DNA of 64,000 nt. Origin: Silurus meridionalis (lineage: Eukaryota > Chordata > Actinopteri > Siluriformes > Siluridae). Positions 4,174 to 64,000 of this stretch are shown piece after piece. The stretch covers positions 29,858,898-29,922,897 of the forward strand of contig NC_060891.1 of assembly GCF_014805685.1 (NCBI RefSeq), given 5' to 3'. The translations under genes were made by a program, and so were the position numbers. How positions within the stretch are numbered: position 1 is the stretch's first letter; every line of letters starts with the position of its first letter. Under the pieces are notes generated by a model. It was given only the letters and a program-made list of their open reading frames with translations, was not told where the DNA came from and searched no databases.

Positions 4174-4191
4174 GCCCCACGTTGGGCGCCA
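4174..4191 (-). other. Primer binding site, tRNA-Lys1,2 type (ERV-A)
   Basis: The minus strand reads TGGCGCCCAACGTGGGGC, 7 nt downstream of the LTR end. This is the 18-nt complement of the 3' end of tRNA-Lys1,2, the primer used by foamy viruses and Mason-Pfizer-type betaretroviruses. Copies E (near 49748-49760) and F (near 59026-59039) keep the flanks but have lost a few bases inside the site. Confidence 0.9.
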
Positions 4192-4487
4192 ATAAATATG
4201 TCGGAACTCAGAGCCCGTCTCTGAGGCGACACATCGAGGGTGGATTTCTTTGCTCAGAGGATTCCCAATAATGCCCAGCCAATTCTAGAAAAAACACAAA
4301 TATAATAGACACAAACCGCCAATGAAGGATCCTCAGTCCTGGATGAGTAAAAGCAAAACTTCTTTATTCCATGCAGGTTTCAATGAGCTCAATAGAAGTT
4401 GGGTACTTCACATCAAAATGAACAGCACATCAAAAATGATAGAGCACGCCAAAGTGAGGAAGTACACTGACTGTTGTTTCACGCTCA

Positions 4488-4495
4488 TATTTATA
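4488..4495 (-). promoter_or_regulatory. Proviral (sense) TATA box of LTR-A
   Basis: TATAAATA on the minus strand with AATAAA about 125 nt downstream (4363-4368) fits a U3/R promoter with a short R. The box is conserved in LTR-C, D, E and F (for example plus-strand ttata about 29870 in C and TATAAATA near 36515 in D). Confidence 0.8.
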
Positions 4496-4762
4496 CCCTG
4501 TAGCCACCGTATCTTTTTATTTTTTTATTCCTTGACCTTGAGTAATTCTTATTTTCCATTTTCTGCCTTCTCTTCCATTTCTGTCTTCTTTTCCCCTTAT
4601 CTTCCATTTTCTGCCTTCTCTTCCATTTCTGTCTTCTTTTCCTAGTTCCCCTTATCTTTGGCCTTGGCTTCTATTCTCCCAACCAACACCATATTTGGGG
4701 TTCCTGTCTTTTCCGTTTCCTTATTTACGGCCCATAACTTTATGTTAAAAAATATGAGTGAG
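4496..4762. promoter_or_regulatory. Divergent promoter region between sense and antisense TATA boxes (LTR-A)
   Basis: About 270 bp separate two TATA boxes that point away from each other. The segment holds a directly repeated pyrimidine-rich unit of about 40-45 bp (4552-4640) that on the minus strand is rich in GGAA cores, as in ETS-type sites. It is kept in LTR-C, D and F but replaced by a different repeated segment in LTR-E (41220-41340). An enhancer role is inference. Confidence 0.55.
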
Positions 4763-4768
4763 TATAAA
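4763..4768 (+). promoter_or_regulatory. Antisense TATA box in LTR-A
   Basis: GAGTATAAAGCCC on the plus strand, about 95 bp before the antisense start codon. Equivalent boxes are at 30151 (C), 36235-36240 (D, minus), 41436 (E) and 59605 (F). Conservation in all LTR subtypes supports a real core promoter. Confidence 0.7.
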
Positions 4769-4860
4769 GCCCTTATTTTTCTCTGAGTTCAACCATACGT
4801 TCTTCAGTCTCTCAAGTGTGAACAACCTTTTGCGGCCTATTTTGTCCTCCTGCATTTGCA

Positions 4861-5643
4861 ATGGGTAAGTGTTATGCTTTATTCTTTTATAATGCTGTTT
4901 GCTATTCTACTTTCATTTAATTGAGTTATAGCATTGTTTGTATACTGTGCTTGATTATATAATGCTTTTATTTAATACTTGCAAGCGCCTAGATTACATT
5001 TTTCTAATTGTGTATTCTGAACTGATTGTTACATAGTGTATATGATTTTCTTGAGTGTTATCCTTTGCTTGTGCTCAACCGTCACTATGATATTCCCTAT
5101 TTTAACATCTTATCTCTGTTGGTCTCATTTGGTCTCTTTTGCTCAGCTCCACCATGCCGATCAGCTCAACCACCCCTGCCTCCTAGAGCATCGGCCTTGG
5201 CTGTTCTTCGAGACAGTACCGCCAATTTCAGCTCTCCTCAATTGCTGCTGAGTTTACTCATTTTCTAGAACAGCTCTCCAGCCCAAGTGTCCCAGCTGAT
5301 GCCTTCGTGCCTCCTCGCATTGCACGGGCTTTACAACGCGTGATGGGAGTTCACAGACTTCCCTGATCTCAACCGTCGTCACGAATGTTCCTGTTTTCCT
5401 GACACGACACCACAGTTTTCTCCCTATCCTTCACACTGGTCTCCCACTGATTATACCCCTGCTTCTCCCGTTCCGCCAAACCAGCGTGCTCCTGTGTCTT
5501 CACCCATCCCTGGACCAAGCTACTCCTTTATGTCTCCTGCCCATGCTTCTGTGTCTTCACCTGGGCCTAGATTCAGCTACTCCTTCATGTCCCCTGCTGC
5601 TGCAGAACCCCACACACCCTGCTATTTCAATAAAGATGCTTAA
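4861..5643 (+). pseudogene. LTR antisense spliced gene, copy A (damaged)
   Basis: Antisense to the provirus. Exon 1 ends with ATG G at 4861-4864, directly followed by GTAAGT; the intron 4865-5146 ends TTTTGCTCAG; exon 2 begins at 5147. The frame encodes a basic, Leu-rich N-terminal part and a Pro/Ser-rich C-terminal part with repeated FMSPA motifs, ending ...YFNKDA and stop at 5641-5643. AATAAA (5629-5634) lies inside the last codons. This copy has small deletions (for example near 5210 and 5330) that break the frame, and LTR copies B and C show the undamaged register. I recognise no family. A regulatory role like that of HTLV HBZ is analogy only. Confidence 0.7.
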
Positions 5644-5922
5644 TCTCCCTCAAGTTTGTTTCCTGTCCTTCTTTGCCTATTCCATACACTCATAACATTC
5701 AGTCAGATTCTATCCTACTCACACATGTAAATACCTTATTATTATTATTAATACTTGATGTAAATAAAGGTTTGATTAACATATAGATCAAATAGGTTTT
5801 GTCAGACTACTTCTATTGTATTTAATAAGTTCTATATTTAGTTAGGTTAGTTTAGTTTGATTAATATTAGTTTGATTATAACACACGCTAGATATGGTTG
5901 ATTAAAATATTTTTTCTCGACA

Positions 5923-7355: not shown

Positions 7356-8165
7356 TCACTTGCCTTTTTTTCTCTCTTTTTTCTTTTTTTTTAATGGAAT
7401 GGGTGATAGTCGTCTGATCCAGAGCGGCAGGGGAGCAGATATAGAACTTTGAGACTTCAGTGCAGACCACACCTCATCGTGAAACCTCAAACCAACACCG
7501 TGACGTCTCGATGAGAATACCATTGAGTCTTTTCTGATTGTGTGACATTTGCGACAAAGGATAGGACGACAATTCCAATCACGATGTTTCGCTGGTTCAG
7601 TTGTCCATAGAACATAGCCACAGAAGGTGATGGTGTAGTACGTTACAAAGGTGCTTTGCATGACGAAGTCCGTGAACAGAAAACTGTGAGTTCTCGGAGC
7701 ACCCAGCGAGCGGGCAGGAACCCCAAACGATTGGACAAGGGTAACAGCCCTACGCACATGAAAGATACGGGTGATCAGCTGAAGTCCTGCAGGAAGATCA
7801 TAGACAGAGTTCTGGATGGAATCAAGCCACATTCCATCTGGGGAGAACATGTCAGCGTGGTGCAGAATGTCGATCACCGGTCTGAACGGGTCCGCATCAG
7901 TTTCCCAAACAAATTCGTCCTTTTCTACAGGAAACCTGAACCATTTACGGTGTAAATTATGGCACCGTTTACCTAAAGGACAGGTGGGCTGCTCCAGGCA
8001 CCACAAGCGGTGCTTTAGAAGTACAAGGAAAAAACAAGCATCGCAGGTAGCTCTAAAGGTGTCAAAGTTGAAGCGATACCCCTCAGCACATGCTTCGATG
8101 TACGCACACGTGCCTTGATGCAGACGCATACCTTGCAGAAGCCACCTTTGTTCACCAGCTGCCAT
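7356..8165 (-). CDS. Diverged intact copy of the ERV accessory ORF (Cys/His-rich)
   Basis: Open frame of 269 codons from the ATG at 8165 (MAAGEQRW), preceded by the splice acceptor TGTGTGCAG|GAAC, identical in position to the younger copies. I estimate roughly 60% amino-acid identity to the copy at 24849-25601, with in-frame length differences. Conserved features: EGYRF.FDTFR, a cysteine cluster (C.AC, LWC, CPLG.RCH), W.DEF.WETD, MFSP.G.WLDSIQNSVY, HSFL...FVMQ, VTYYTIT..GYVLWTTEPAKH, CRPIL, and a tail ISAPLP.WI.RL. It ends in a Lys-rich stretch from an A-rich tract. Just upstream is an env tail relic but no gag or pol. The open frame in so decayed a setting suggests either a later-inserted lineage or selection after insertion. 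Function unknown. Confidence 0.75.
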   Translation of the reverse strand: MAAGEQRWLLQGMRLHQGTCAYIEACAEGYRFNFDTFRATCDACFFLVLLKHRLWCLEQPTCPLGKRCHNLHRKWFRFPVEKDEFVWETDADPFRPVIDILHHADMFSPDGMWLDSIQNSVYDLPAGLQLITRIFHVRRAVTLVQSFGVPARSLGAPRTHSFLFTDFVMQSTFVTYYTITFCGYVLWTTEPAKHRDWNCRPILCRKCHTIRKDSMVFSSRRHGVGLRFHDEVWSALKSQSSISAPLPLWIRRLSPIPLKKKKKERKKGK

Positions 8166-8283
8166 GTTCCTGCACACAGCAGAAAATACACACAACAACT
8201 TGATTTATATCATATAATCAAAGAATCAGAATTAAAGTGTAGAAAGAATTTAGTGCTTTTAGTTATAAGGAAACGTTTGTTAG

Positions 8284-10016: not shown

Positions 10017-11288
10017 TCACTCTCGGGTTTCCATCCTCATTTCTCTTCCCTCACCTAAGAATCTTTGTTTTCTCAGAGATTTCTGCGACTCTTTGGGTTT
10101 GTGGAGGTTCAGCTTTCTGTTCCTGTTCTTGATGTCCAGATTTGTCTCATCTTGCTGCTGTTTCTCATAGTCAGAACCCAAAGTGCCCTCAACTGAATTA
10201 CATGTTTCTCCAATTGCTCTTGGTTTCTCAGAATTATCTTTCTCAAGCTCTTTAGTCTTCATCTGTATCTTACAGTGATTCACAGTATCCTGGAGCTCTC
10301 GAATGTAGGAGAGGAACATATTAGAACTCCAGACCATATCTAATTTAGCCTTCTTTTTTTTTTTCTCATCCCTTTTTTTTTTCTTAAAATTTAAAATCAG
10401 CTGAACAACATGGTCCTCTAGTTGCTCCTGGTAACTTATCAGATGATCTCTCTCATGCTCTGCTCTATTCTTTTCCTCCTCACAGTGATTTAGAGAATCC
10501 TGGAGCTCTCTGATGGTCTGGATCTGTAAGTTGTTATTCTTCTCCATGTCTAGTTTGGCCTTCTTTTTTTCTCCTTCCACTTATTTCTCTTAAATTCCAA
10601 AGTGGCCTTCAGCTGAGCAACATGTTTCTCCTCTTGTGTTCTCGTTCTTTCATCAAATTATCTCTCTCATGCTCTGCACAATTCTTCTCTTCCTCACACT
10701 AATTCAGGGAATCCTGGAGGTCTCTGATGGTTTGAAGGTATAAGATGGTCCTCTCCTGCATGTCTCGTTTGACCATCTTTATTTTTACCTGCCATTTATT
10801 TTTTTCAAAATTCAAAGTGGCCTGCAGCTGAGCAACATGTTCCTCCAGTCGCTCTTGGTGTCTCATCAAATTATCTATCTTATGCTTTGCAGTCTTCTTC
10901 TCTTCTTTACAAAGATTCAGAGAATCCTGGACCTTTTTGATGGTCAGAAGCAGTAAGTTGATCCTCTTCTTCATGTCTAGTTGGTCCTTCTTGCATTTCT
11001 CCTCCCATTTATTTCTCTCAAATTCAAAACTGGCCTCGAGCTGAGCAACACGTTCCAGCAGTTGCTTTTGTTCTGTCACACAGCTCTCTCTCTCACATTC
11101 TACAGATTTCTCCTGTTGCTCAGGGAAGACTGGAGCTTGGTGATGTTCTGGAGGTGTGTGTCGTTTCTATGATTTATGTTCTTATACTTTGACTTGAGCG
11201 TGTCTCTACACTGGAGTTCAATCAGCTCCATTTGGAGGTTGGTTGGTGCGCTTTCCAAATCTGCATTTCTGGGCTTCAAAATCGGCAA
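10017..11288 (-). pseudogene. Coiled-coil repeat protein, intronless and broken
   Basis: Minus-strand frames 11288-11100, 11079-10699 and 10580-10017 form one gene broken by frameshifts and a stop near 10700. It consists of about four to five repeats of 50-60 residues built from RELQDSLN, a Cys/Glu-rich stretch EEK...EH, LI.YQE.LE.HV.QL and a Lys-rich F...KW..K.K..KLDM segment. This is strongly helical and heptad-like. There are no introns in 1.3 kb. No family recognised; similar repeats occur in golgin- or myosin-tail-like proteins, but that is only composition. A piece of its 3' end appears to be duplicated at 7290-7366. Possibly a degraded retrocopy. Confidence 0.55.
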
Positions 11289-21837: not shown

Positions 21838-23247
<1,410 letters not shown>

Positions 23248-23347: not shown

Positions 23348-24147
23348 TCTCATTTGGTCTCTTTTGCTCAGCTCCACCACGCTGATCAGCTCAACCACCC
23401 TGCCTCCTAGACCATCGGCCTTGGCTGTTCTTCGCAGACAGTACCGCCAATTTCAGCTCTCCTCAATTGCTGCTGAGTTTACTCATTTTCTAGAACAGCT
23501 CTCCCGCCCAAGTGTCCCAGCTGATGCCTTCGTGCCTCCTCGCATTGCGCGGGGCTTTACAACGCGTGATGGGAGTTCACAGACTTCCCCTGATCTCAAC
23601 CGTCGTCACGAATGTTCCTGTTTTCCTGACACAGCACCGCAGTTCTCTCCCTATCCTTCACACTGGTCTCCCACTAATTATACCCCTACATCTCCTGTTC
23701 CGCCAAACCAGCGTGCTCCTGTGTCTTCACCCATCCCTGGACCAAGCTACTCCTTTATGTCTCCTGCCCATGCTTCTGTGTCTTCACCTGGGCCTAGATT
23801 CAGCTACTCCTTCATGTCCCCTGCTGCTGCAGAACCTCACACACCCTGCTATTTCAATAAAGATGCTTAATCTCCCTCAAGTTTGTTTCCTGTCCTTCTT
23901 TGCCTATTCCATACACTCATATCAGTCAGATTCTATCCTACTCACACACGTAAATACCTTATTAATATTATTATCAATACTTGATGTAAATAAAGGTTTG
24001 ATTAACATATAGATCAAATAGGTTTTGTCAGACTACTTCTATTGTATTTAATAAGTTCTATATTTAATTAGGTTAATTTAGTTTGATTAATATTAGTTTG
24101 ATTATAACACACGCTAGATATGGTTGATTAAAATATTTTTCTCGACA
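23348..24147 (-). repeat. LTR-B, 3' LTR of ERV-B, U5/R side lost in gap
   Basis: The last 800 bp of an LTR, ending CTCGACA at 24147. To the right lies a polypurine tract on the minus strand, so this is the 3' LTR of a minus-strand provirus. It retains the intron end and exon 2 of the antisense gene. Confidence 0.9.
23372..23870 (+). pseudogene. LTR antisense gene exon 2, copy B
   Basis: Follows TTTTGCTCAG at 23362-23371. From about 23425 the frame is open to TAA at 23868-23870: a Leu/Arg/Gln-rich helix (LRRQYRQFQL), acidic spots, Pro/Ser/Tyr-rich tail with two SYSFMSPA repeats, ending TPCYFNKDA. AATAAA at 23856-23861 overlaps the last codons. A TGA near 23384 and a one-base loss near 23398 break the beginning of the exon. 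Exon 1 is in the gap. Confidence 0.65.
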
Positions 24148-24848: not shown

Positions 24849-25601
24849 TTAATCCAATGAGGTAACGGAGCGGATATATGGCGACCAGTCCGTAGTGCGA
24901 ACCACACAGCATTGTACCATTTTAGACGGGCGTCTACCATGCAATGAAATTACCTCTGAGTCTCTGGCACGCTTGTGATATCTGTGAAGCAGGATAGGGC
25001 GACAGTGCCAATCCCAATGTTTTGCTGGTTCCGTTGTCCATAGAACATAGCCTCCTAAGGTAATGGTGTAGTATGTTACAGTAGTGCGTTGCATAACAAA
25101 GGTCGTAAGCAGGAAACTATGGGTGTTTCGGGCTCTTGTTGAGAAGGAAAGAACCCCAAATGACTCAGCCAGGGAGATTGCGTGACGTATTGTGAAGACT
25201 CGGGTGACCATCTGGAGTCCACCAGGAAGATTATAGACAGAGTTCTGAATGGAGTCTAACCACGTTCCCTCCGGAGAAAACATGTTAGCATGGCGCAAAA
25301 TGGCGGTCACTGGTCTACGCTGGTCCTCATCTGTTTCCCAAGCAAACTCATCCCTCTGCGGAGGAAAACCGAACCACTCATGGGGTCCATCATGGCACCG
25401 GTCACCCAAAGGACAGTCGTCACCGTCTTGGCACCACAAGCAATGTGTCTGATGGTCATAAGTTAGGGCTGCACACGCCTCACAGGGACCCCTGAATGTG
25501 TCGAAGGCGAAGCGATAACCCTCATAACATGTTTCTGCGAATGCACACACACCAGGAAACAGTCGCAGATTCGGCTGTAGCCACCTGGGTTCACCAGCCA
25601 T
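24849..25601 (-). CDS. ERV-B accessory protein, Cys/His-rich, nearly intact
   Basis: Frame of 250 codons from the ATG at 25601 (MAGEPRWLQ), 4 nt after the splice acceptor TGTGTGCAG|GAAC (boundary 25606/25605). The gene lies between the env stop (25823) and the PPT, where complex retroviruses keep regulatory genes. Cysteine cluster at about residues 18-76: C..FAETC, CEACA, HCLWC, CPLGDRCHDGPHEW, consistent with metal binding. Later conserved WETDEDQRRPV, WLDSIQNSVYNLPGG, VTYYTITLGGYVLWTTEPAKH. The last 25 or so residues are frameshifted by a 2-base loss near 24928 compared with the copies at 43316 and 7356, which end ISAPLP.WI.RL. No signal peptide or membrane span. I recognise no family. Confidence 0.8.
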   Translation of the reverse strand: MAGEPRWLQPNLRLFPGVCAFAETCYEGYRFAFDTFRGPCEACAALTYDHQTHCLWCQDGDDCPLGDRCHDGPHEWFGFPPQRDEFAWETDEDQRRPVTAILRHANMFSPEGTWLDSIQNSVYNLPGGLQMVTRVFTIRHAISLAESFGVLSFSTRARNTHSFLLTTFVMQRTTVTYYTITLGGYVLWTTEPAKHWDWHCRPILLHRYHKRARDSEVISLHGRRPSKMVQCCVVRTTDWSPYIRSVTSLD

Positions 25602-25822
25602 GTTCCTGCACACAACATGTAAAACTCACAACAACAACATGGTTCATACAACATAATGCGGACAAGCAACGACCTAAAGCATTTGCCATGAAAGTGGGAA
25701 ATATAGAAGTAAACCTCCACGGGTATGTTATTAGCATCAAGATCAATAATCAAGCACAGATAGATAGATGGCTAGACAGATATATATCTATATACATATT
25801 AAAAGGATATGTTTGGTGTACG

Positions 25823-29574: not shown

Positions 29575-31301
29575 TGTCGGAACTCAGAGCCCGTCTCTGA
29601 GGCGACACATCAGTGGATTTCTTTGCTCAGAGGATTCCCAATAATGCCCAGCCAATTCTAGAAAAAACACAAATATAATAGACACAAACCGCCAATGAAG
29701 GATCCTCAGTCCTGGATGAGTAAAAGCAAAACTTATTTATTTCCATGCACGTTCCAAAGAGCTCAGTAGAAGGTGGGTACTTCACATCAAAATGAACAGC
29801 ACATCAACAAATGATAGAGCACGCCATAGTGAGGAAGTACACTGACTGTTGTTTCACGCTCATATTTATACCCTGTAGCCACCGTATCTTTTTATTTTTT
29901 TTATTCCTTGACCTTGAGTAATTCCCCTTATTTTCCATTTTCTGCCTTCTCTTCCATTTCTGTCTTCTTTTCCCCCTTATCTTCCATTTTCTGCCTTCTC
30001 TTCCATTTCTGTCTTCTTTTCCTAGTTCCCCTTATCTTTGGCCTTGGCTTCTATTCTCCCAAACAACACCATATTTGGGGTTCCTGTCTTTTTCCCGTTT
30101 CCCCTTATTTACGGCCCATAACTTTATGTTAAAAAAAAAATATGAGTGAGTATAAAGCCCTTATTTTTCTCTGAGTTCAACCATACGTTCTTCAGTCTCT
30201 CAAGTGTGAACAACCTTTTTGCGGCCTATTTTGTCTTCCTGCATTTGCAATGGGTAAGTGTTATGCTTTATTCTTTTTATAATGCTGTTTTGCTATTCTA
30301 CTTTTATTTAATTGAGTTATATCATTGTTTGTATACTGTGCTTGATTATAATACTTTTAATTAATAGTTGTATGCGCCTAGGTTATATTTTAATTGTGCA
30401 TTCTGAACTGAATGTTACACAGTGTGTAGAATCTTTTTCTTGCATGAGTGTTATCTTTTGCTTATGCCCGTAGTCACCGTGATTTGACCCTGTCTAATAT
30501 CTTATCTCTGTTGGTCTCTTTTGCTCAGCTCCACCACGTTTGCCTCCCAGAACGACTCAGTTGGGCATTCTTCGCCGACAATTTCGCCAGTTTCAGCTCT
30601 CCTTACTTGCCGCTGAGCTTACTCATTTTCTTGAACATCTTTCCAGCCCAAGTGTCCCTGAGGATGCCTTCCTGCCTCCTCGCATTGTGCAGAGCACTTC
30701 TACGCGTGACAAGAGCACACAGACTTCTCCTGAGCTCAACAGCCGTCACGGATGCTCCTACTTCCCTGACACGACACCACAGTTTTCTCCCTATCCTTCA
30801 CACTGGTCTCCCACTGATTATTCCCCTACGTCTCCTGTTGCTTTGCCAAGTCACCGTGCTCCTGTGCCTTCACCTGGCTTCGGGCCAAGCCGCTCTTTCA
30901 TGTCTCCTGCCCATGCTTCTGTGTCTTCCCCAGGCCTTGGGCCTAGCTACTCCTACATGTCTCCTGCAGCTGCTGAAGCCCGTCGCCTTGCTATTTCAAT
31001 AAAGATGCTTAATCTCCCTCAAGTTTGTTTCCTGTCCTTCTTTGCCTATTCCATACACTCATAACATTTAGTCAGATTCTATCCTACTCACACATGTAAA
31101 TACCTTATTATTATTATTAATACTTGATGTAAATAAAGGTTTGATTAACATATAGATCAAATAGGTTTTGTCAAACTACATCTATTATATCTAATAAGTT
31201 CTATATTGCTTTATTAAGTTAATTAGGTTAATTTAGTTTGATAATATTAGTTTGATTATAACACACGCTAGATATGGTTGATTAAAATATTTTCCTCGAC
31301 A
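29575..31301 (-). repeat. LTR-C, 3' LTR of nested ERV-C
   Basis: 1,727-bp LTR inserted into ERV-B pol at a GTCT site; followed on the right by the polypurine tract and accessory gene of a second provirus. It shares private differences with LTR-D (GTTCCAAAGAGCTCAGTAGAAGGTGGG region), so C and D are the closest pair. Sense TATA near 29870, antisense TATA 30151-30156. Confidence 0.92.
30250..31064 (+). CDS. LTR antisense spliced gene, copy C (reading frame uninterrupted after splicing)
   Basis: ATG at 30250-30252 plus one G, donor GTAAGT from 30254, intron 30254-30528 ending TTTTGCTCAG, exon 2 from 30529. The joined frame has no stop for about 179 codons. Beyond the first few residues (Pro/Arg-rich) it holds a likely amphipathic helix with ILRRQFRQFQLSLLAAELTH, then Pro/Ser/Tyr-rich sequence with HWSPTDYSPTSP and paired SPG.GPS.S.MSPA repeats. 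A one-base loss near 30985 shifts the C-terminus relative to copies A, B, D and F, so the normal stop overlapping AATAAA (30998-31003) is missed and the frame runs to 31064, past the likely cleavage site. Whether protein is made from this copy is doubtful; it shows the open frame best. Confidence 0.65.
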
Positions 31302-31839: not shown

Positions 31840-32225
31840 ATGTGCGATATCTGTGAATCAGGATAGGGCGACAGTGCCAATCCCGATGTGTTGCTGGTTC
31901 CGTTGTCCATAGAACATAGCCTCCTAAGGTAATGGTGTAGTATGTTACAGTAGTGCGTTGCATGACGAAGGTCGTAAGCAGGAAACTATGGGTGTTTCGG
32001 CCTCTTGTTGAGAAGGAAAGAACCCCAAATGACTCAGCCAGGAGATTGCGCGACGTGTGAAGACTCGGGTGACCATCTGGAGTCCACCAGGAAGATTATA
32101 GACAGAGTTCTGAATGGAGTCTAACCACGTTCCCTCCAGAGAAAACATGTTAGCATGGCGCAAAATGGCGGTCACTGGTCTACGCTGGTCCTCATCTGTT
32201 TCCCAAGCAAACTCATCCCTCTGTG
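31840..32225 (-). pseudogene. ERV-C accessory gene, truncated at both ends
   Basis: Middle part of the Cys/His-rich accessory ORF, from DEFAWETDEDQRRPV (about 32220) through WLDSIQNSVYNLPGG to WTTEPATHRDWHCRPIL (about 31850). The cysteine-rich N-terminus is lost where non-viral sequence begins at about 32226; the C-terminus is deleted at about 31845. Frame broken near 32050. Confidence 0.85.
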
Positions 32226-32500
32226 GGATGCTGTAAATACTGGGGTCTGGAAATGAAACTGTATTTAAGTGAAACAGGTGAACAGCTTTTCTCCTGAAGT
32301 TTGATGGATAGCCTTGAGTCAGTTTGTTCAGCTCTAGTGATTTAATTTGTAGATGGTCCTGATTGAGGCTTTTTCGATACCAGTGCAGATAGTCAGCTGA
32401 TGCATCATATTTGCAGAGTGGTGATACTGCCTACAGATTTAGATGATGGTTTGTTCTGGTGTAATGCTGCTGCCAACAGATCCTGCTGTAAACATTACAA
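32226..32500 (-). pseudogene. T-cell receptor / immunoglobulin V-like exon relic
   Basis: On the minus strand, after an acceptor-like TGTTTACAG, the sequence reads SITPEQT, then CKYDASADYLHWYRKSLNQ. The Cys (32413-32415) and Trp (32380-32382) are spaced 11 residues apart, followed by a framework-like stretch ending NTVSFPDPSIYSIP. This is the strand-B Cys and strand-C Trp pattern of a V domain and resembles fish TCR alpha/delta V segments. A stop lies just before the Cys, and the expected YYC end is missing because ERV-C sequence begins at about 32225. 32500-32627 has no recognised content. Confidence 0.5.
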
Positions 32501-35090: not shown

Positions 35091-36815
35091 TGTCGAGAAA
35101 AATATTTTAATCAACCATATCTAGCGTGTGTTATAATCAAACTAATATTATCAAACTAAATTAACCTAATTAACTTAATAAAGCAATATAGAACTTATTA
35201 GATATAATAGATGTAGTTTGACAAAACCTATTTGATCTATATGTTAATCAAACCTTTATTTACATCAAGTATTAATAATAATAATAAGGTATTTACATGT
35301 GTGAGTAGGATAGAATCTGACTAAATGTTATGAGTGTATGGAATAGGCAAAGAAGGACAGGAAACAAACTTGAGGGAGATTAAGCATCTTTATTGAAATA
35401 GCAAGGCGTACGGGCTTCAGCAGCTGCAGGAGACATGTAGGAGTAGCTAGGCCCAAGGCCGGGCGAAGACACAGAAGCATGGGCAGGAGACATGAAAGAG
35501 CGGCTTGGCCCGAAGCCAGGTGAAGGCACAGGAGCACGGTGACTTGGCAAAGCAACAGGAGACGTAGGGGAATAATCAGTGGGAGACCAGTGTGAAGGAT
35601 AGGGAGAAAACTGTGGTGTCGTGTCAGGGAAGTAGGAGCATCCGTGACGGCTGTTGAGCTCAGGAGAAGTCTGTGTGCTCTTGTCACGCTGTAGAAGTGC
35701 TCTGCACAATGCGAGGAGGCAGGAAGGCATCCTCAGGGACACTTGGGCTGGAAAGATGTTCAAGAAAATGAGTAAGCTCAGCGGCAAGTAAGGAGAGCTG
35801 AAACTGGCGAAATTGTCGGCGAAGAATGCCCAACTGAGTCGTTCTGGGAGGCAAACGTGGTGGAGCTGAGCAAAGAGACCAACAGAGATAAGATATTAGA
35901 CAGGGTCAAATCACGGTGACTACGGGCATAAGCAAAAGATAACACTCATGCAAGAAAAGATTCTACACACTGTGTAACATTCAGTTCAGAATGCACAATT
36001 AAAATATAACCTAGGCGCATACAACTATTAATTAAAAGTATTATAATCAAGCACAGTATACAAACAATGATCTAACTCAATTAAATAAAAGTAGAATAGC
36101 AAAACAGCATTATAAAAAGAATAAAGCATAACACTTACCCATTGCAAATGCAGGAAGACAAAATAGGCCGAAAAAGGTTGTTCACACTTGAGAGACTGAA
36201 GAACGTATGGTTGAACTCAGAGAAAAATAAGGGCTTTATACTCACTCATATTTTTTTTAACATAAAGTTATGGGCCGTAAATAAGGGGAAACGGGAAAAA
36301 GACAGGAACCCCAAATATGGTGTTGTTTGGGAGAATAGAAGCCAAGGCCAAAGATAAGGGGAACTAGGAAAAGAAGACAGAAATGGAAGAGAAGGCAGAA
36401 AATGGAAGATAAGGGGGAAAAGAAGACAGAAATGGAAGAGAAGGCAGAAAATGGAAAATAAGGGGAATTACTCAAGGTCAAGGAATAAAAAAATAAAAGA
36501 TACGGTGGCTACAGGGTATAAATATGAGCGTGAAACAACAGTCAGTGTACTTCCTCACTATGGCGTGCTCTATCATTTGTTGATGTGCTGTTCATTTTGA
36601 TGTGAAGTACCCACCTTCTACTGAGCTCTTTGGAACGTGCATGGAAATAAAGAAGTTTTGCTTTTACTCATCCAGGACTGAGGATCCTTCATTGGCGGTT
36701 TGTGTCTATTATATTTGTGTTTTTTCTAGAATTGGCTGGGCATTATTGGGAATCCTCTGAGCAAAGAAATCCACCCTCGATGTGTCGCCTCAGAGACGGG
36801 CTCTGAGTTCCGACA
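35091..36815 (+). repeat. LTR-D, solo LTR inside pol with 4-bp target duplication
   Basis: 1,725-bp LTR in plus orientation, TGTCGAG...TTCCGACA, flanked on both sides by AGAC (35087-35090 and 36816-36819). The uninterrupted site CAAGACCCC is seen in copy F near 51635. A four-base duplication fits gamma/epsilon-type integration. Pol continues on both sides, so this LTR is solo. The nested LTR-C occupies the identical position in ERV-B. Confidence 0.93.
35380..36142 (-). pseudogene. LTR antisense spliced gene, copy D (one frameshift)
   Basis: Start codon 36142-36140, donor GTAAGT at 36138, intron 36138-35876, exon 2 from 35875, stop 35382-35380; AATAAA at 35394-35389 lies within the last codons and antisense TATA at 36240-36235. 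Exon 2 is open except for a one-base insertion near 35693. Its C-terminus (EARTPCYFNKDA) shows the tail lost by frameshift in copy C. Confidence 0.65.
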
Positions 36816-40888: not shown

Positions 40889-42571
40889 TGTCGGAACTCA
40901 GAGCCCGTCTCTGAGGCGACACATCGAGGGTGGATTCCTTTGCTCAGAGGATTCCCAATAATGCTCAGCCAATTCTAGAAAACACAAATATAATAGACAC
41001 AAACCGCCAATGAAGAATCCTCAGTCCTGGATGAATAAAAGCAAAACTTCTTTATTCCATGCAGGTTTCAAAGAGCTCAATAAAAGCTGGGTACTTCACA
41101 TCAAAATGAACAGCACATCAACAAATGATAAAGCATGCCAAAGTGAAGAAGTACACTGACTGTTGTTTCACGCTCGTATTTATACCTTGTGGCCACCGTG
41201 TCTTACTATTTTTTTCTACTTCCTTGACCTTGAAGAATTCCCCTTATGTCTCGGTCTTACCTTCTTTGTCCATAATTCCCCTTATGTCTCTGAATTTTGC
41301 CTTCCTTGTCAATTCCCCTTATCTTTGGCCTTGGCGTTCATTCTTTCAACAATACCATATTTGGAGTTCCTGTGTTTTTTTAGTTCCCCTTATTTTCCGG
41401 CCCATAATTTTATATTAAAAAAAAATATGAGTGAGTATAAAAGGCTTTTACTTTTCTCTGGTTTTAACCATACATTCTTCAGTCTTTCAAGTGTGAACAA
41501 CCTTTTTACGGCCTATTTTGTCCTCCTGCATTTGCAATGGGTAAGTGTTATGTTTTATTCTTTTATAATGCTGTTCTGCTATTCTACTTACATTTGATTG
41601 AGTTATAACATTGTTTATAGTTTGTTTACGTACTATGCTTGATTAATTAATGGCTGTAAGCGCCTAAGTTATATTTTACCTTGTGCATTCTGAACTGATT
41701 GTTACTCAGTGTATATGATTTTCTTGAGTGTTATCCTTTACTTGTGCTCAACCGTCACTATGATATTCCCTTTTTAACATCTTATCTCTGTTGGTCTCAT
41801 TCCCCAGCTCCACCACGCCGATCAGCTCGGTCTCATTCCCCAGCTCCACCACGCCTGCCTCCCAGACCATCGGCCCTGGGTGCTCGCAGACAGTACCGCC
41901 AACTTCAGCTCTCTCTCTTGCTGCTGAGTTTACTCATTTTTAGAACAGCTCTCTAGCCCAAATATCCCAGCTAATGCCTTCGTGCCTCCTCGCATTTCTG
42001 GGTCTTACAATGCTTGATGGGAGTACACAGACTTCCCCTGATCTCAGCCGTCCACGACTGCTCCTGTTTTCCTGACACGACACCACAGTTTTCTCCCTAT
42101 CCTTCACACTGGTCTACCACTGGTTCTTTCCCTGCTTCTCCGTTCCGCCAAACCAGCGTGCTCCTGTGTCTTCACCCATCCCTGGACCAAGCTACGCTTT
42201 TATGTCCCCTGTCCATGCTTCTGTGTCTTCACCTGGGCCTAGATTCAACTTCTCCTTCATTTCCCTGCTGCTGCAGAACCCCATACACCCTGCTATTTCA
42301 ATAAAGACGATTAATCTCCCTCAAGTTTGTTTCTTGTCCTTTTTTGCCTATTCCATACACTCATAACATTCAGTCAGTTTCTAGCCTACTCACACATGTA
42401 AATACCTTATTATTATTATTAATACTTGATGTACATAAAGGTCTATTTGTCAAACTTCATCTAATAAGTTCTATATTGCTTATTAAGGTACTTAGGTTAA
42501 TGTTATTTTGATAATATTAGTTTGATTATAACACACACTAGATATGGTTGATTGAAATGTTTTTCTCGACA
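40889..42571 (-). repeat. LTR-E3', 3' LTR of ERV-E (second LTR subtype)
   Basis: 1,683-bp LTR followed on the right by the PPT (42572-42587) and accessory gene. The segment between the two TATA boxes (about 41220-41400) differs from A/C/D/F: it repeats CCCCTTATGTCTC units. The sense TATA and antisense TATA (41436-41442) are retained. Confidence 0.92.
41537..42310 (+). pseudogene. LTR antisense spliced gene, copy E (damaged)
   Basis: ATG 41537-41539, donor at 41541, intron 41541-41817 ending TTCCCCAG, exon 2 from 41818, AATAAA 42300-42305. A 36-bp segment that includes the acceptor itself (GGTCTCATTCCCCAG) is duplicated in frame, giving two tandem acceptors (41817 and about 41853). Several one-base indels after about 41915 break the frame. 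Confidence 0.6.
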
Positions 42572-43315: not shown

Positions 43316-44073
43316 CTATAACCGCTTAATCCAATGAGGTAAGGGAGCAGATATATGGCGACCAGTCCGTAATGCGAACCACACAGCATTGTACCATTTT
43401 AGACGGGACCGTCTACCATGCACTGAAACTACCTCTGAGTCTCTGGCACGCTTGTGATATCTGTGACACAGGATGGGGCGACAGTGCCAACCCCAGTGTT
43501 TTGCTGATTCCGTTGTCCATAGAACATAGCCTCCTAAGGTAATGGTGTAGTATGTTACAGTGGTGCGTTGCATGACGAAGGTCGTAAGCAGAAAACTATG
43601 GGTGTTTCGGGCTCTTGTCGAGAAGGAAAGAACCCCAAATGACTCAGCCAGGAGATTGCGCGACGTGTGTGAAGACTCGGGTGACCATCTGGAGTCCACC
43701 AGGAAGATCATAAACAGAGTTCTGAATGGAGTCTAGCCACATCCTCTGGGAAAACATGTTAGCATGGCGCAAAATGGCGGTCACTGGTCTACGCTGGTCC
43801 TCATCTGTTTCCCAGGCAAACTCATCCCTCTGTGGAGGAAAACCGAACCACTCATGGGGTCCACCATGGCATCGTTTCACCCAAAGGACAGTCGTCACCG
43901 TTTGGCACCACAAACAATGTGTCTGATTGTCATAGGTTAGGCTGCACACGCCTCACAAGGACCCCTGAAAGTGTTGAAGGCGGCGATATCCCTCATAACA
44001 TGTTTCTGTGTATGCACACCCAGGAAACAGTCGCAGATTCGGCTGTAGCCACCTGGGTTCTCTGGCATGTTCC
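43316..44073 (-). pseudogene. ERV-E accessory gene, frameshifted
   Basis: Same gene as 24849-25601, with the acceptor TGTGTGCAG at about 44085-44077. Damaged near the start codon, near 43930-43860 and at 43650. The C-terminal 130 codons are open and end ISAPLPHWIKRL at 43316, the tail shared with the diverged copy at 7356. Confidence 0.85.
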
Positions 44074-49768: not shown

Positions 49769-50519
49769 TGTCGGAACTCAGAGCCCGTCTCTGAGGCGAC
49801 ACATCGAGGGTGGATTCCTTTGCTCAGAGGATTCCCAATAATGCTCAGCCAATTCTAGAAAACACAAATATAATAGACACAAACCGCCAATGAAGAATCC
49901 TCAGTCCTGGATGAATAAAAGCAAAACTTCTTTATTCCATGCAGGTTTCAAAGCTCAATAAAAGCTGGGTACTTCACATCAAAATGAACAGCACATCAAC
50001 AAATGATAAAGCATGCCAAAGTGAAGAAGTACACTGACTGTTGTTTCACGTCGATTTATACCTTGTGGCCACCGTGTCTTACTATTTTTCTACTTCCTTG
50101 ACCTTGAAGAATTCCCTTATGTCTCGGTCTTACCTTCTTTGTCCATAATTCCCCTTATGTCTCTGAATTTTGCCTTCCTTGTCAATTCCCTTATCTTTTG
50201 GCGTTCATTCTTTCAACAATACCATATTTGGAGTTCCTGTGTTTTTAGTTCCCCTTATTTTCCGCCCATAATTTTATATTAAAAAATATGAGTGAGTATA
50301 AAAGGCTTTTACTTTTCTCTGGTTTTAACCATACATTCTTCAGTCTTTCAAGTGTGAACAACCTTTTACGGCCTATTTTGTCCTCCTGCATTTGCAATGG
50401 GTAAGTGTTATGTTTTATTCTTTTATAATGCTGTTCTGCTATTCTACTTACATTTGATTGAGTTATAACATTGTTTTAGTTTGTTTGCATACTATGCTTG
50501 ATTAATTAATGGTGTAAGC
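49769..50519 (-). repeat. LTR-E5', truncated 5' LTR of ERV-E
   Basis: U5, R and the promoter part of U3 only. It belongs to the same subtype as 40889-42571, supporting one provirus. It keeps the antisense TATA, ATG (50397-50399) and splice donor (50401) but ends at about 50518 in the antisense intron, where pol of ERV-F begins (shared GCTGGTCC-type bases at the joint). Confidence 0.9.
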
Positions 50520-59045: not shown

Positions 59046-60744
59046 TGTCGGAACTCAGAGCCCGTCTCTGAGGCGACACATCGAGGGTGGATTTCTTTGC
59101 TCAGAGGATTCCCAATAATGCCCAGCCAATTCTAGAAAACACAAATATAATAGACACAAACCGCCAATGAAGGATCCTCAGTCCCGGATGAGTAAAAGCA
59201 AAACTTCTTTATTCCATGCAAGTTCTAATGAGCTCAATAGAAGTTGGGTACTTCCCATCAAAATGAACAGCACATCAACAAATGATAGAGCATAAAGTGA
59301 GGAAGTACACTGACTGTTGTTTCACGCTCATATTTATACCCTGTAGCCACCGTATCTTTTATTTTTTATTCCTTGACCTTGAGTAATTCCCTTATTTTCC
59401 ATTTTCTGCCTTCTCTTCCATTTCTGTCTTCTTTTCCCCTTATCTTCCATCTTCTGCCTTCTCTTCCATTTCTGTCTTCTTTTCCTAGTTCCCTTATCTT
59501 TGGCCTTGGCTTCTATTCTCCCAACCAACACCATATTTGGGGTTCCTGTCTTTTCCGTTTCCTTATTTACGGCCCATAACTTTATGTTAAAAAATATGAG
59601 TGAGTATAAAGCCCTTATTTTTCTCTGAATTCAACCATACGTTCTTCAGTCTCTCAAGTGTGAACAACCTTTTATGCCTATTTTGTCCTCCTGCATTTGC
59701 AATGGGTAAGTGTTATGCTTTATTCTTTTATAATGCTGCTATTCTACTTTCATTATTTGAGTTATGTCATCGTCTTTGATTGCTTGTATACTGTGCTTGA
59801 TTATATAATGCTTTTATTTAATACTGGCGCCTAGACTACATTTTTTAATTGTGTATTCTGAACTGATTGTTACATAGTGTATATGATTTTTCTTGAGTGT
59901 TATCCTTTGCTTGTGCTCAACCGTCACTATGATATTCCCTATTTTAACATCTTATCTCTGTTGGTCTCATTTGGTCTCTTTTGCTCAGCTCCACCATGCG
60001 ATCAGCTCAACCATCCCTGCCTCCTAGAGCATCGGCCTTGGTTGTTCTTCGCAGACAGTACCGCCAATTTCAGCTCTCCTCAATTGCTGCTGAGTTTACT
60101 CATTTTCTAGAACAGCTCTCCCGCCCAAGTGTCCCAGCTGATGCCTTCGTGCCTCCTCGCATTGCGCGGGGCTTTACAGCGCGTGATGGGAGACACAGAC
60201 TTCCCTGATCTCAACCGTCGTCCACGAATGTTCCTGTTTTCCTGACACAGTACCACAGTTTTCTCCCTATCCTTCACACTGGTCTCCCACTGATTATACC
60301 CCTACTTCTCCCGTTGCCGCCAAACCAGCGTGCTCCTGTGTCTTCACCCATCCCTGGACCAAGCTACTCCTTTATGTCTCCTGCCCATGCTTCTGTGTCT
60401 TCACCTGGGCCTAGATTCAGCTACTCCTTCATGTCCCCTGCTGCTGCAGAACCCACACACCCTGCTATTTCAATAAAGATGCTTAATCTCCCTCAAGTTT
60501 GTTTCTGTCCTTCTTTGCCTATTCCATACACTCATATCAGTCAGATTCTATCCTACTCACACACGTAAATACCTTATTATTATTATTAATACTTGATGTA
60601 AATAAATAGGTTTTGTCAGACTACTTCTATTATATCTAATAAGTTCTATATTTATTAAGTTAATTAGGTTAATTTAGTTTGATTAATATTAGTTTGATTA
60701 TAACACACGCTAGATATGGTTGATTAAAATATTTTTTCTCGACA
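59046..60744 (-). repeat. LTR-F, 5' LTR of ERV-F
   Basis: 1,699-bp LTR of the A type. The right flank is the protease region of a Ty3/gypsy element, so ERV-F integrated into that element. Antisense TATA at 59605-59610. Confidence 0.93.
59702..60486 (+). pseudogene. LTR antisense spliced gene, copy F (damaged)
   Basis: ATG 59702-59704, donor at 59706, intron 59706-59988, exon 2 from 59989, AATAAA 60472-60477, stop 60484-60486. A one-base loss near 59998 and others near 60190-60230 and 60455 shift the frame; the middle of exon 2 (LRRQYRQFQL..., FVPPRIARGFT) remains readable. Confidence 0.65.
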
Positions 60745-63866: not shown

Positions 63867-63998
<132 letters not shown>

Positions 63999-64000
63999 AT

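Follow-up and report, generated by a model that had tools for sequence, protein, structure and literature searches.

A predicted spliced antisense gene within U3 of the LTRs of a catfish endogenous retrovirus family

Retroviral genes read in the antisense direction and genes carried inside LTRs are both known; a spliced antisense gene closed within U3, as described here, appears to be new. The nearest counterparts, HBZ of HTLV-1 and SBZ of STLV-1, are likewise antisense retroviral protein genes with a start in the LTR and a spliced form, although the HBZ gene leaves the LTR. The antisense ORF of HIV-1, ASP, lies opposite env; sag of MMTV is a gene inside the LTR with a variable coding part, running in sense orientation in U3 and encoding a superantigen; and the plant Retand elements, LTR elements of the Gypsy type, reportedly carry antisense ORFs, which the title of that work places outside the LTR, in the region between pol and the 3' LTR. 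According to a 2023 review (PMC10186651), HBZ transcription is TATA-less and begins in R/U5 of the 3' LTR, ASP is a predicted membrane protein whose full ORF is recent and belongs to group M, and antisense proteins in endogenous retroviruses are without evidence. In the parts of the literature reached by our searches, no account of this gene was found, nor any work joining a Silurus meridionalis retrovirus with its LTR.

The LTRs of an endogenous retrovirus (ERV) family in this catfish very probably carry an autonomous, spliced antisense gene in U3 that may belong with HBZ-like accessory factors. Unlike HBZ, its TATA box, intron, stop codon and AATAAA all lie within U3, its start is predicted, and no bZIP was found in its product; like HBZ, one predicted form of it, typified by the gene model P0001, also enters the provirus. 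It differs from ASP in lying in the LTR, in being mostly disordered in the structural model and in being common to divergent subfamilies, and from sag in being antisense and having an intron; likeness in sequence to sag, looked for by Pfam alone, was not found. HBZ and sag were already the known cases named by an earlier note on this DNA. The present gene is neither: its predicted start is not the TATA-less R/U5 start of HBZ, and its frame does not run in sense as that of sag does.

The window, that is, the whole stretch of 64,000 nucleotides analysed, lies at the very end of contig C8 and consists of ERV copies, related to one another and heaped together, in which the minus strand carries the gag and env frames and most of the pol frames, with a single pol copy on the plus strand. 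Domain searches of pol returned RVT_1, RNase_H and rve together with MLVIN_C, the MLV-type integrase C-terminus, and the best match of the reverse transcriptase (RT) among PDB chains was to a Gag-Pol chain (E 6.2e-57), with RT p80 and MMLV RT chains adjoining; by this MLV-like RT and integrase the family would be placed among class I-like ERVs. As to a gamma-type Env, the match to TLV_coat (E 0.0037, 16.5 bits) lies below that family's cut-off of 22.5 bits. Rfam matched no RNA family in the window, and IMG/VR, from which near genomes may be left out, returned no relatives of either the antisense protein or the RT. Elsewhere in the window, coiled-coil-like frames in tandem units of about 213 bp lie on the minus strand at 10017-11166, a tandem array with a 174-bp unit occupies 21853-22674, about four of its copies being identical across 21853-22560, and the contig ends in a GATA microsatellite at 63867-64000.

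The orientation of the gene can be read from LTR A1 (4199..5922, minus strand, ending TGTCGA...CCGACA), the 5' LTR of a provirus that runs leftwards out of the window. Its partner has exon 2 at C8:29849444, with an RT in between on the opposite strand. The sense TATA box region of the viral promoter (4484..4498) and the sense poly(A) signal AATAAAG (4354..4368) are both on the minus strand, as is the primer binding site at 4174..4191, which we take to be of the Lys type and which opens the leader 7 bases past the LTR. Because the sense of LTR A1 is thus minus, a gene on its plus strand is antisense and falls within U3, as had been claimed, and the gag frames agree. A reversed LTR, in which the supposed antisense gene would really be sense, is ruled out by the primer binding site, the strand of gag, pol and env, and the sense TATA and AATAAA. 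Three LTR pairs of which both members were fetched differ by 0.7, 0.9 and 2.4%, so several insertions are young.

Within LTR A1, every element described by the earlier note lies where it was placed, all on the plus strand. The antisense TATA box, TATAAA, is at 4763..4768; the end of exon 1 at 4861..4870 comprises ATGG (4861-4864), that is, the start codon and a G, joined to the donor GTAAGT (4865-4870); the predicted intron of 282 bp (4865..5146) ends in CAG, its acceptor AG ending at 5146; and the exon 2 coding region (5147..5643), which has two frame breaks in this copy, closes with TAA at 5641-5643. The AATAAA at 5629..5634 lies 12 bases ahead of the stop and itself codes for Asn-Lys. Across the family, the intron is about 280 bp, the frame about 140-175 aa, and AATAAA falls within the last codons. 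At the antisense TATA, GAGTGAGTATAAA is identical across the six window LTRs that cover that stretch.

The window by itself offers few copies, from about four LTR subtypes, and all are decayed, each being truncated or broken in frame. The start-donor word does recur at the six sites reported, 4861, 30250, 36142 (minus strand), 41537, 50397 and 59702, but these are not six independent cases, since two appear to belong to one insertion and a third LTR is without exon 2. LTR A2 (59046..60744, minus) is a 5' LTR with its antisense ATGG at 59702 and exon 2 from 59989. LTR B (49769..50476, minus) is a truncated 5' LTR that retains the antisense TATA, start and donor and ends within the intron. LTR C1 (29575..31301, minus), a 3' LTR with ATGG at 30250 and exon 2 from 30529 on the plus strand, is open in frame apart from about its last 12 codons; LTR C2 (35091..36815, plus) is a solo LTR with a 4-bp target duplication, GTCT, in which ATGG is at 36142 and exon 2 runs downwards from 35865 on the minus strand. 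C1 is adjoined on one side by a PPT-like stretch and internal sequence, C2 is solo, and N gaps lie between their contigs; the two have a common flank, GTTGGGGTCT, and are less than 1% apart in substitutions, on which grounds they are taken as one insertion at the same site, probably represented by two haplotypes that were both retained in the assembly. LTR D (40889..42571, minus) is a 3' LTR with ATGG at 41537, exon 2 from 41808 and a 36-bp duplication of the acceptor region. A seventh window LTR, A3 (23348..24147, minus), stands outside the six with the start-donor word; it is a 3' LTR in which an N gap cuts off exon 1 and exon 2 begins at 23372 on the plus strand. Of the claim that a complete gene is contained within each LTR, the anatomy stands, and the unbroken start-to-stop frame fails in every window copy; complete frames are found elsewhere in the genome.

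The LTRs are mosaic. LTR D has an A-like exon 2 (8% divergence from A1), but the block that extends from its sense promoter to its antisense TATA is 26% diverged from that of A1. When the intron and exon 2 are set aside, subtypes A and C show 97-98% identity; in exon 2 they are only about 81% alike (19-20% divergence), with a synonymous distance of about 0.5, and because synonymous sites share in the divergence the block was probably exchanged by recombination. The lengths reported for subtype C are correct, exon 2 of C1 being 18 nt shorter near its start and 3 nt longer in the middle than that of A1.

Beyond the window, exon 2 was found at a minimum of 120 merged places in the 742.6-Mb assembly. 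Of the 64 places with an RT within 11 kb, 60 have the nearest one on the opposite strand and four on the same strand, and 56 of the at least 120 places have none; this count uses all 130 listed RT places and its numbers are lower bounds from the best candidates scored, and a smaller count that used 52 of the 130 gave 61 opposite and three same. Three of the four same-strand cases are in the gapped contigs of the window, and the fourth has its nearest RT at C3:32548165, which is only 39% identical; at that place another RT, on the opposite strand, lies inside the LTR pair. Likewise, for 28 of 30 LTR-like pairs the RT in between is exclusively on the opposite strand, the two exceptions being within the window. 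Among the first 60 exon 2 matches, 45 extend over 125 or more of the 167 residues, 34 of them free of stops. On contig C4, a divergent subfamily (48-57% identity) accounts for 17 of the 18 places listed between 0.45 and 5.5 Mb, and in 16 of the 17 the matched part has no stop.

Sixty loci were fetched, 40 chosen as stop-free, which span subfamilies down to near 50% protein identity, and 20 chosen as broken or partial. The anatomy recurs in both sets: the start-donor ATGG^GTRAG is present in 38 of the 40 and 18 of the 20 (56/60 overall), a TATA 95-105 bases ahead of ATGG in 35 and 17, and the acceptor AG|CTCCA(C/T)CA in all 40 and in 18 (58/60 overall). An unbroken reading from acceptor to the NK.. 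stop is found in 30 of the 40 and, as their selection implies, in none of the 20, hence in half of the 60. Across 22 LTRs, divergence is 8% from the antisense TATA to the donor, compared with 19% upstream, 12% in the intron, 16% in exon 2 and 5% in R-U5.

Gene models and proteins of other species add a further line of evidence. At least 21 relatives were found in the protein collection, among them 13 from S. meridionalis, one from S. asotus, one from Pangasianodon, three from Hemibagrus and two from Tachysurus, by two profile searches that scored the best 7994 and 7987 candidates by common words. The Hemibagrus and Pangasianodon members were significant in the first search (E 3.4e-9 and 2.7e-9); P0018 was non-significant when first found (E 0.65) and was then put into the next query alignment, on which P0021 partly rests, so that the Tachysurus members are weaker evidence. 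Seven of the 21 are predicted gene models that start with MAPP or MAPS, matching the ATGG|CT junction, and an eighth, P0002, contains the junction product. For the predicted models P0003, P0004, P0005 and P0009, loci bounded by an LTR were found with 100% identity.

One of these models raises an alternative, namely that the gene chiefly yields a longer antisense transcript, closer to HBZ, which begins in a 3' LTR and continues by splicing into the provirus, the LTR-contained form being a minor isoform or the product of solo LTRs. P0001 (RefSeq LOC124389594), the predicted model at C1, with an exon 2 part 99% that of C1, stops not at the LTR stop but after two more plus-strand exons, the third at 31867..31928 and the fourth, with its stop, at 32016..32124, separated by an 87-bp GT-AG intron and antisense to an accessory gene X; sequence like this tail occurs at three other copies of gene X in the window. 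The LTR-contained form may therefore not be the sole product. Against the longer transcript as the main one, however, the donor that P0001 would use in exon 2 is GC rather than GT, in seven predicted models (P0002-P0006, P0009 and P0010) the protein closes with NK.. at the stop within the LTR, and AATAAA lies 12 bases ahead of that stop in 36 of the 40 stop-free and 19 of the 20 broken or partial loci; we regard this alternative as unlikely. Gene X itself is conserved and lies on the minus strand between env and the 3' LTR, at 24849-25625, 7356-8204, 31945-32430 and 43410-43835, and its product of about 258 aa at 24849-25625 has no Pfam or NCBIfam match.

A second alternative is that a host gene, or the gene of a nested mobile element, was captured in an ancestral LTR and now serves the host rather than the virus. 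The combination of TATA, intron and poly(A) signal does resemble a transplanted unit, and relatives from other catfish genera have the same order of motifs. Yet three protein searches returned no family from Pfam for five relatives at E<=10, hence no bZIP, none from NCBIfam for the members tested, and among PDB chains matches at E 0.11 or worse, taken as chance; moreover, an LTR terminus (at most two of 18 mismatches) bounds the copy at 37 of the 40 stop-free loci and at 14 of the 20 chosen as broken or partial. Capture for the host is on this evidence improbable.

How exon 2 has changed bears on a third alternative, in which antisense transcription at these LTRs counts as RNA alone, through interference with the sense promoter or as a lncRNA, with the frame incidental. 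Antisense LTR transcripts without an ORF have been described for several ERVs (PMC10186651). In exon 2, however, the changes follow the frame. Between C1 and A3, differences at codon positions 1, 2 and 3 number 27, 22 and 45 (chi-square p 0.009), whereas the intron of C1 and A1, taken as control, is flat by thirds (12, 10 and 11). The Nei-Gojobori dN/dS for this pair is 0.33 (bootstrap 0.21-0.50), and when these changes were placed at random 2000 times, no value as low arose. The claimed frame alone among the six is free of stops in both C1 and A3; the three opposite-strand frames have 4-11 stops, and the one that shares the wobble positions has a dN/dS of 0.35, yet 8-10 stops. Gaps tell the same story, with a length divisible by three for 219 of the 344 exon 2 gaps and for 81 of the 550 intron gaps, from pairwise comparison of 14 loci, four of them with broken frames and the pairs not independent.

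The protein is under real but moderate selection, judged from codon comparisons between the two subtypes and tree-wide. Within subtype A the changes are too few to tell (A1-A2 dN/dS 1.18 on 9 changes, A1-A3 0.28 on 13), and for A3 and D the exon 2 value is 0.69. The third position holds most changes in four of five further subfamily pairs, and has no excess in L018-L046 (35/41/39). For pairs drawn from the 30 complete loci, the median omega is 0.64 for dS of 0.05-0.2, 0.47 for 0.2-0.5 and 0.46 for 0.5-1.0, from the 422 of 435 pairs with usable dS in these bins, and a codon maximum likelihood estimate over 19 complete loci gives a tree-wide omega of 0.70, weaker than the 0.33 of C1 and A3 (lnL -3070.5, compared with -3077.0 for an omega of 1.0 at the best of the kappa values tried in a grid). 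Being more diverged than the intron, exon 2 is not simply conserved. Both measures that the earlier note had named, exon 2 dN/dS and the balance of frame-breaking and in-frame indels, thus bear out its claim that the frame persists between subtypes, with substitutions and gaps following the frame in exon 2 unlike in the intron. Together with the relatives in other genera and their common motifs, these patterns make an RNA acting alone a disfavoured and highly improbable reading, and the antisense gene of the LTR family is very probably protein-coding. A low-complexity Pro/Ser-rich LTR can keep frames open by its composition, and 15% of random placements have no stop; a chance open frame with chance splice words is nevertheless rejected by the frame tests with intron control and random placement, by the indel statistics and by the complete frames in 30 of 60 loci.

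The protein so encoded would be largely without fixed structure. An AlphaFold2 model built on 19 relatives contains one confident helix, at residues 18-46, with the rest disordered (mean pLDDT 62.9, pTM 0.25). The motif Y(S/T)PT(S/F)P occurs in 15 of the 21 relatives, compared with a mean of 0.009 in shuffled sequences; YSPTSPS is the heptad of the Pol II CTD. A TQT anchor, often as D-x-x-TQT, is found in 20 of the 21 (shuffled mean 1.2), and in the model it lies at residues 72-74, in a disordered part with pLDDT below 50; as the relatives are homologous, these are not 21 independent cases. According to one study (PMC6607443), TQT is the usual anchor for LC8 and many peptides that have it fail to bind, so the anchor alone gives no assurance of LC8 binding. 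Binding of the protein to LC8 (DYNLL), judged from the motif, is somewhat more probable than its absence.

The reading of the earlier note, an antisense gene borne by the LTR, is supported by the anatomy in 60 loci, the frame-following changes, the orientation relative to RT, the gene models and the relatives in other catfish genera. In the mechanism we propose, the two TATA boxes, sense and antisense, some 270 bp apart and facing away from each other, would make of the LTR a divergent double promoter. The antisense transcript is predicted to be spliced once, as ATGG, intron and exon 2, and to be cleaved just beyond the stop codon, with the AATAAA in the codons ahead of the stop as its signal. 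Such cleavage would end the gene within the LTR, so that its expression would be possible from a 5' LTR, a 3' LTR or a solo LTR. The intron would survive reverse transcription because its splice sites lie opposite the genomic RNA and are absent there. The product, which we infer to be a regulator as the earlier note had proposed, may act in trans in the manner of HBZ, damping or retuning proviral transcription or persistence through host hubs, for example, the dynein light chain LC8; an accessory role of this kind in proviral transcription or persistence is put forward tentatively, as a possibility somewhat short of even. A broader proposal, and a doubtful one, is that the LTR serves as carrier of an intron-containing gene whose variants swap as a cassette, with resident LTRs tuning or blocking incoming relatives in the manner of immunity or a repressor. 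Because the entire gene can persist in a solo LTR, alleles of a trans-acting retroviral factor would then accumulate in the host genome as an ever larger store.

For the biology of these elements, a gene that lies wholly within an LTR can survive solo-LTR formation, and a solo LTR could thus be a gene and not merely a promoter. The antisense placement also shows how an intron can be retained by a retroelement. The ERV clade described here, with its gene at no fewer than 120 places in one genome, offers material for direct tests of antisense regulation, and catfish genes currently labelled "uncharacterized," RPB1-like or extensin-like may be LTR genes.
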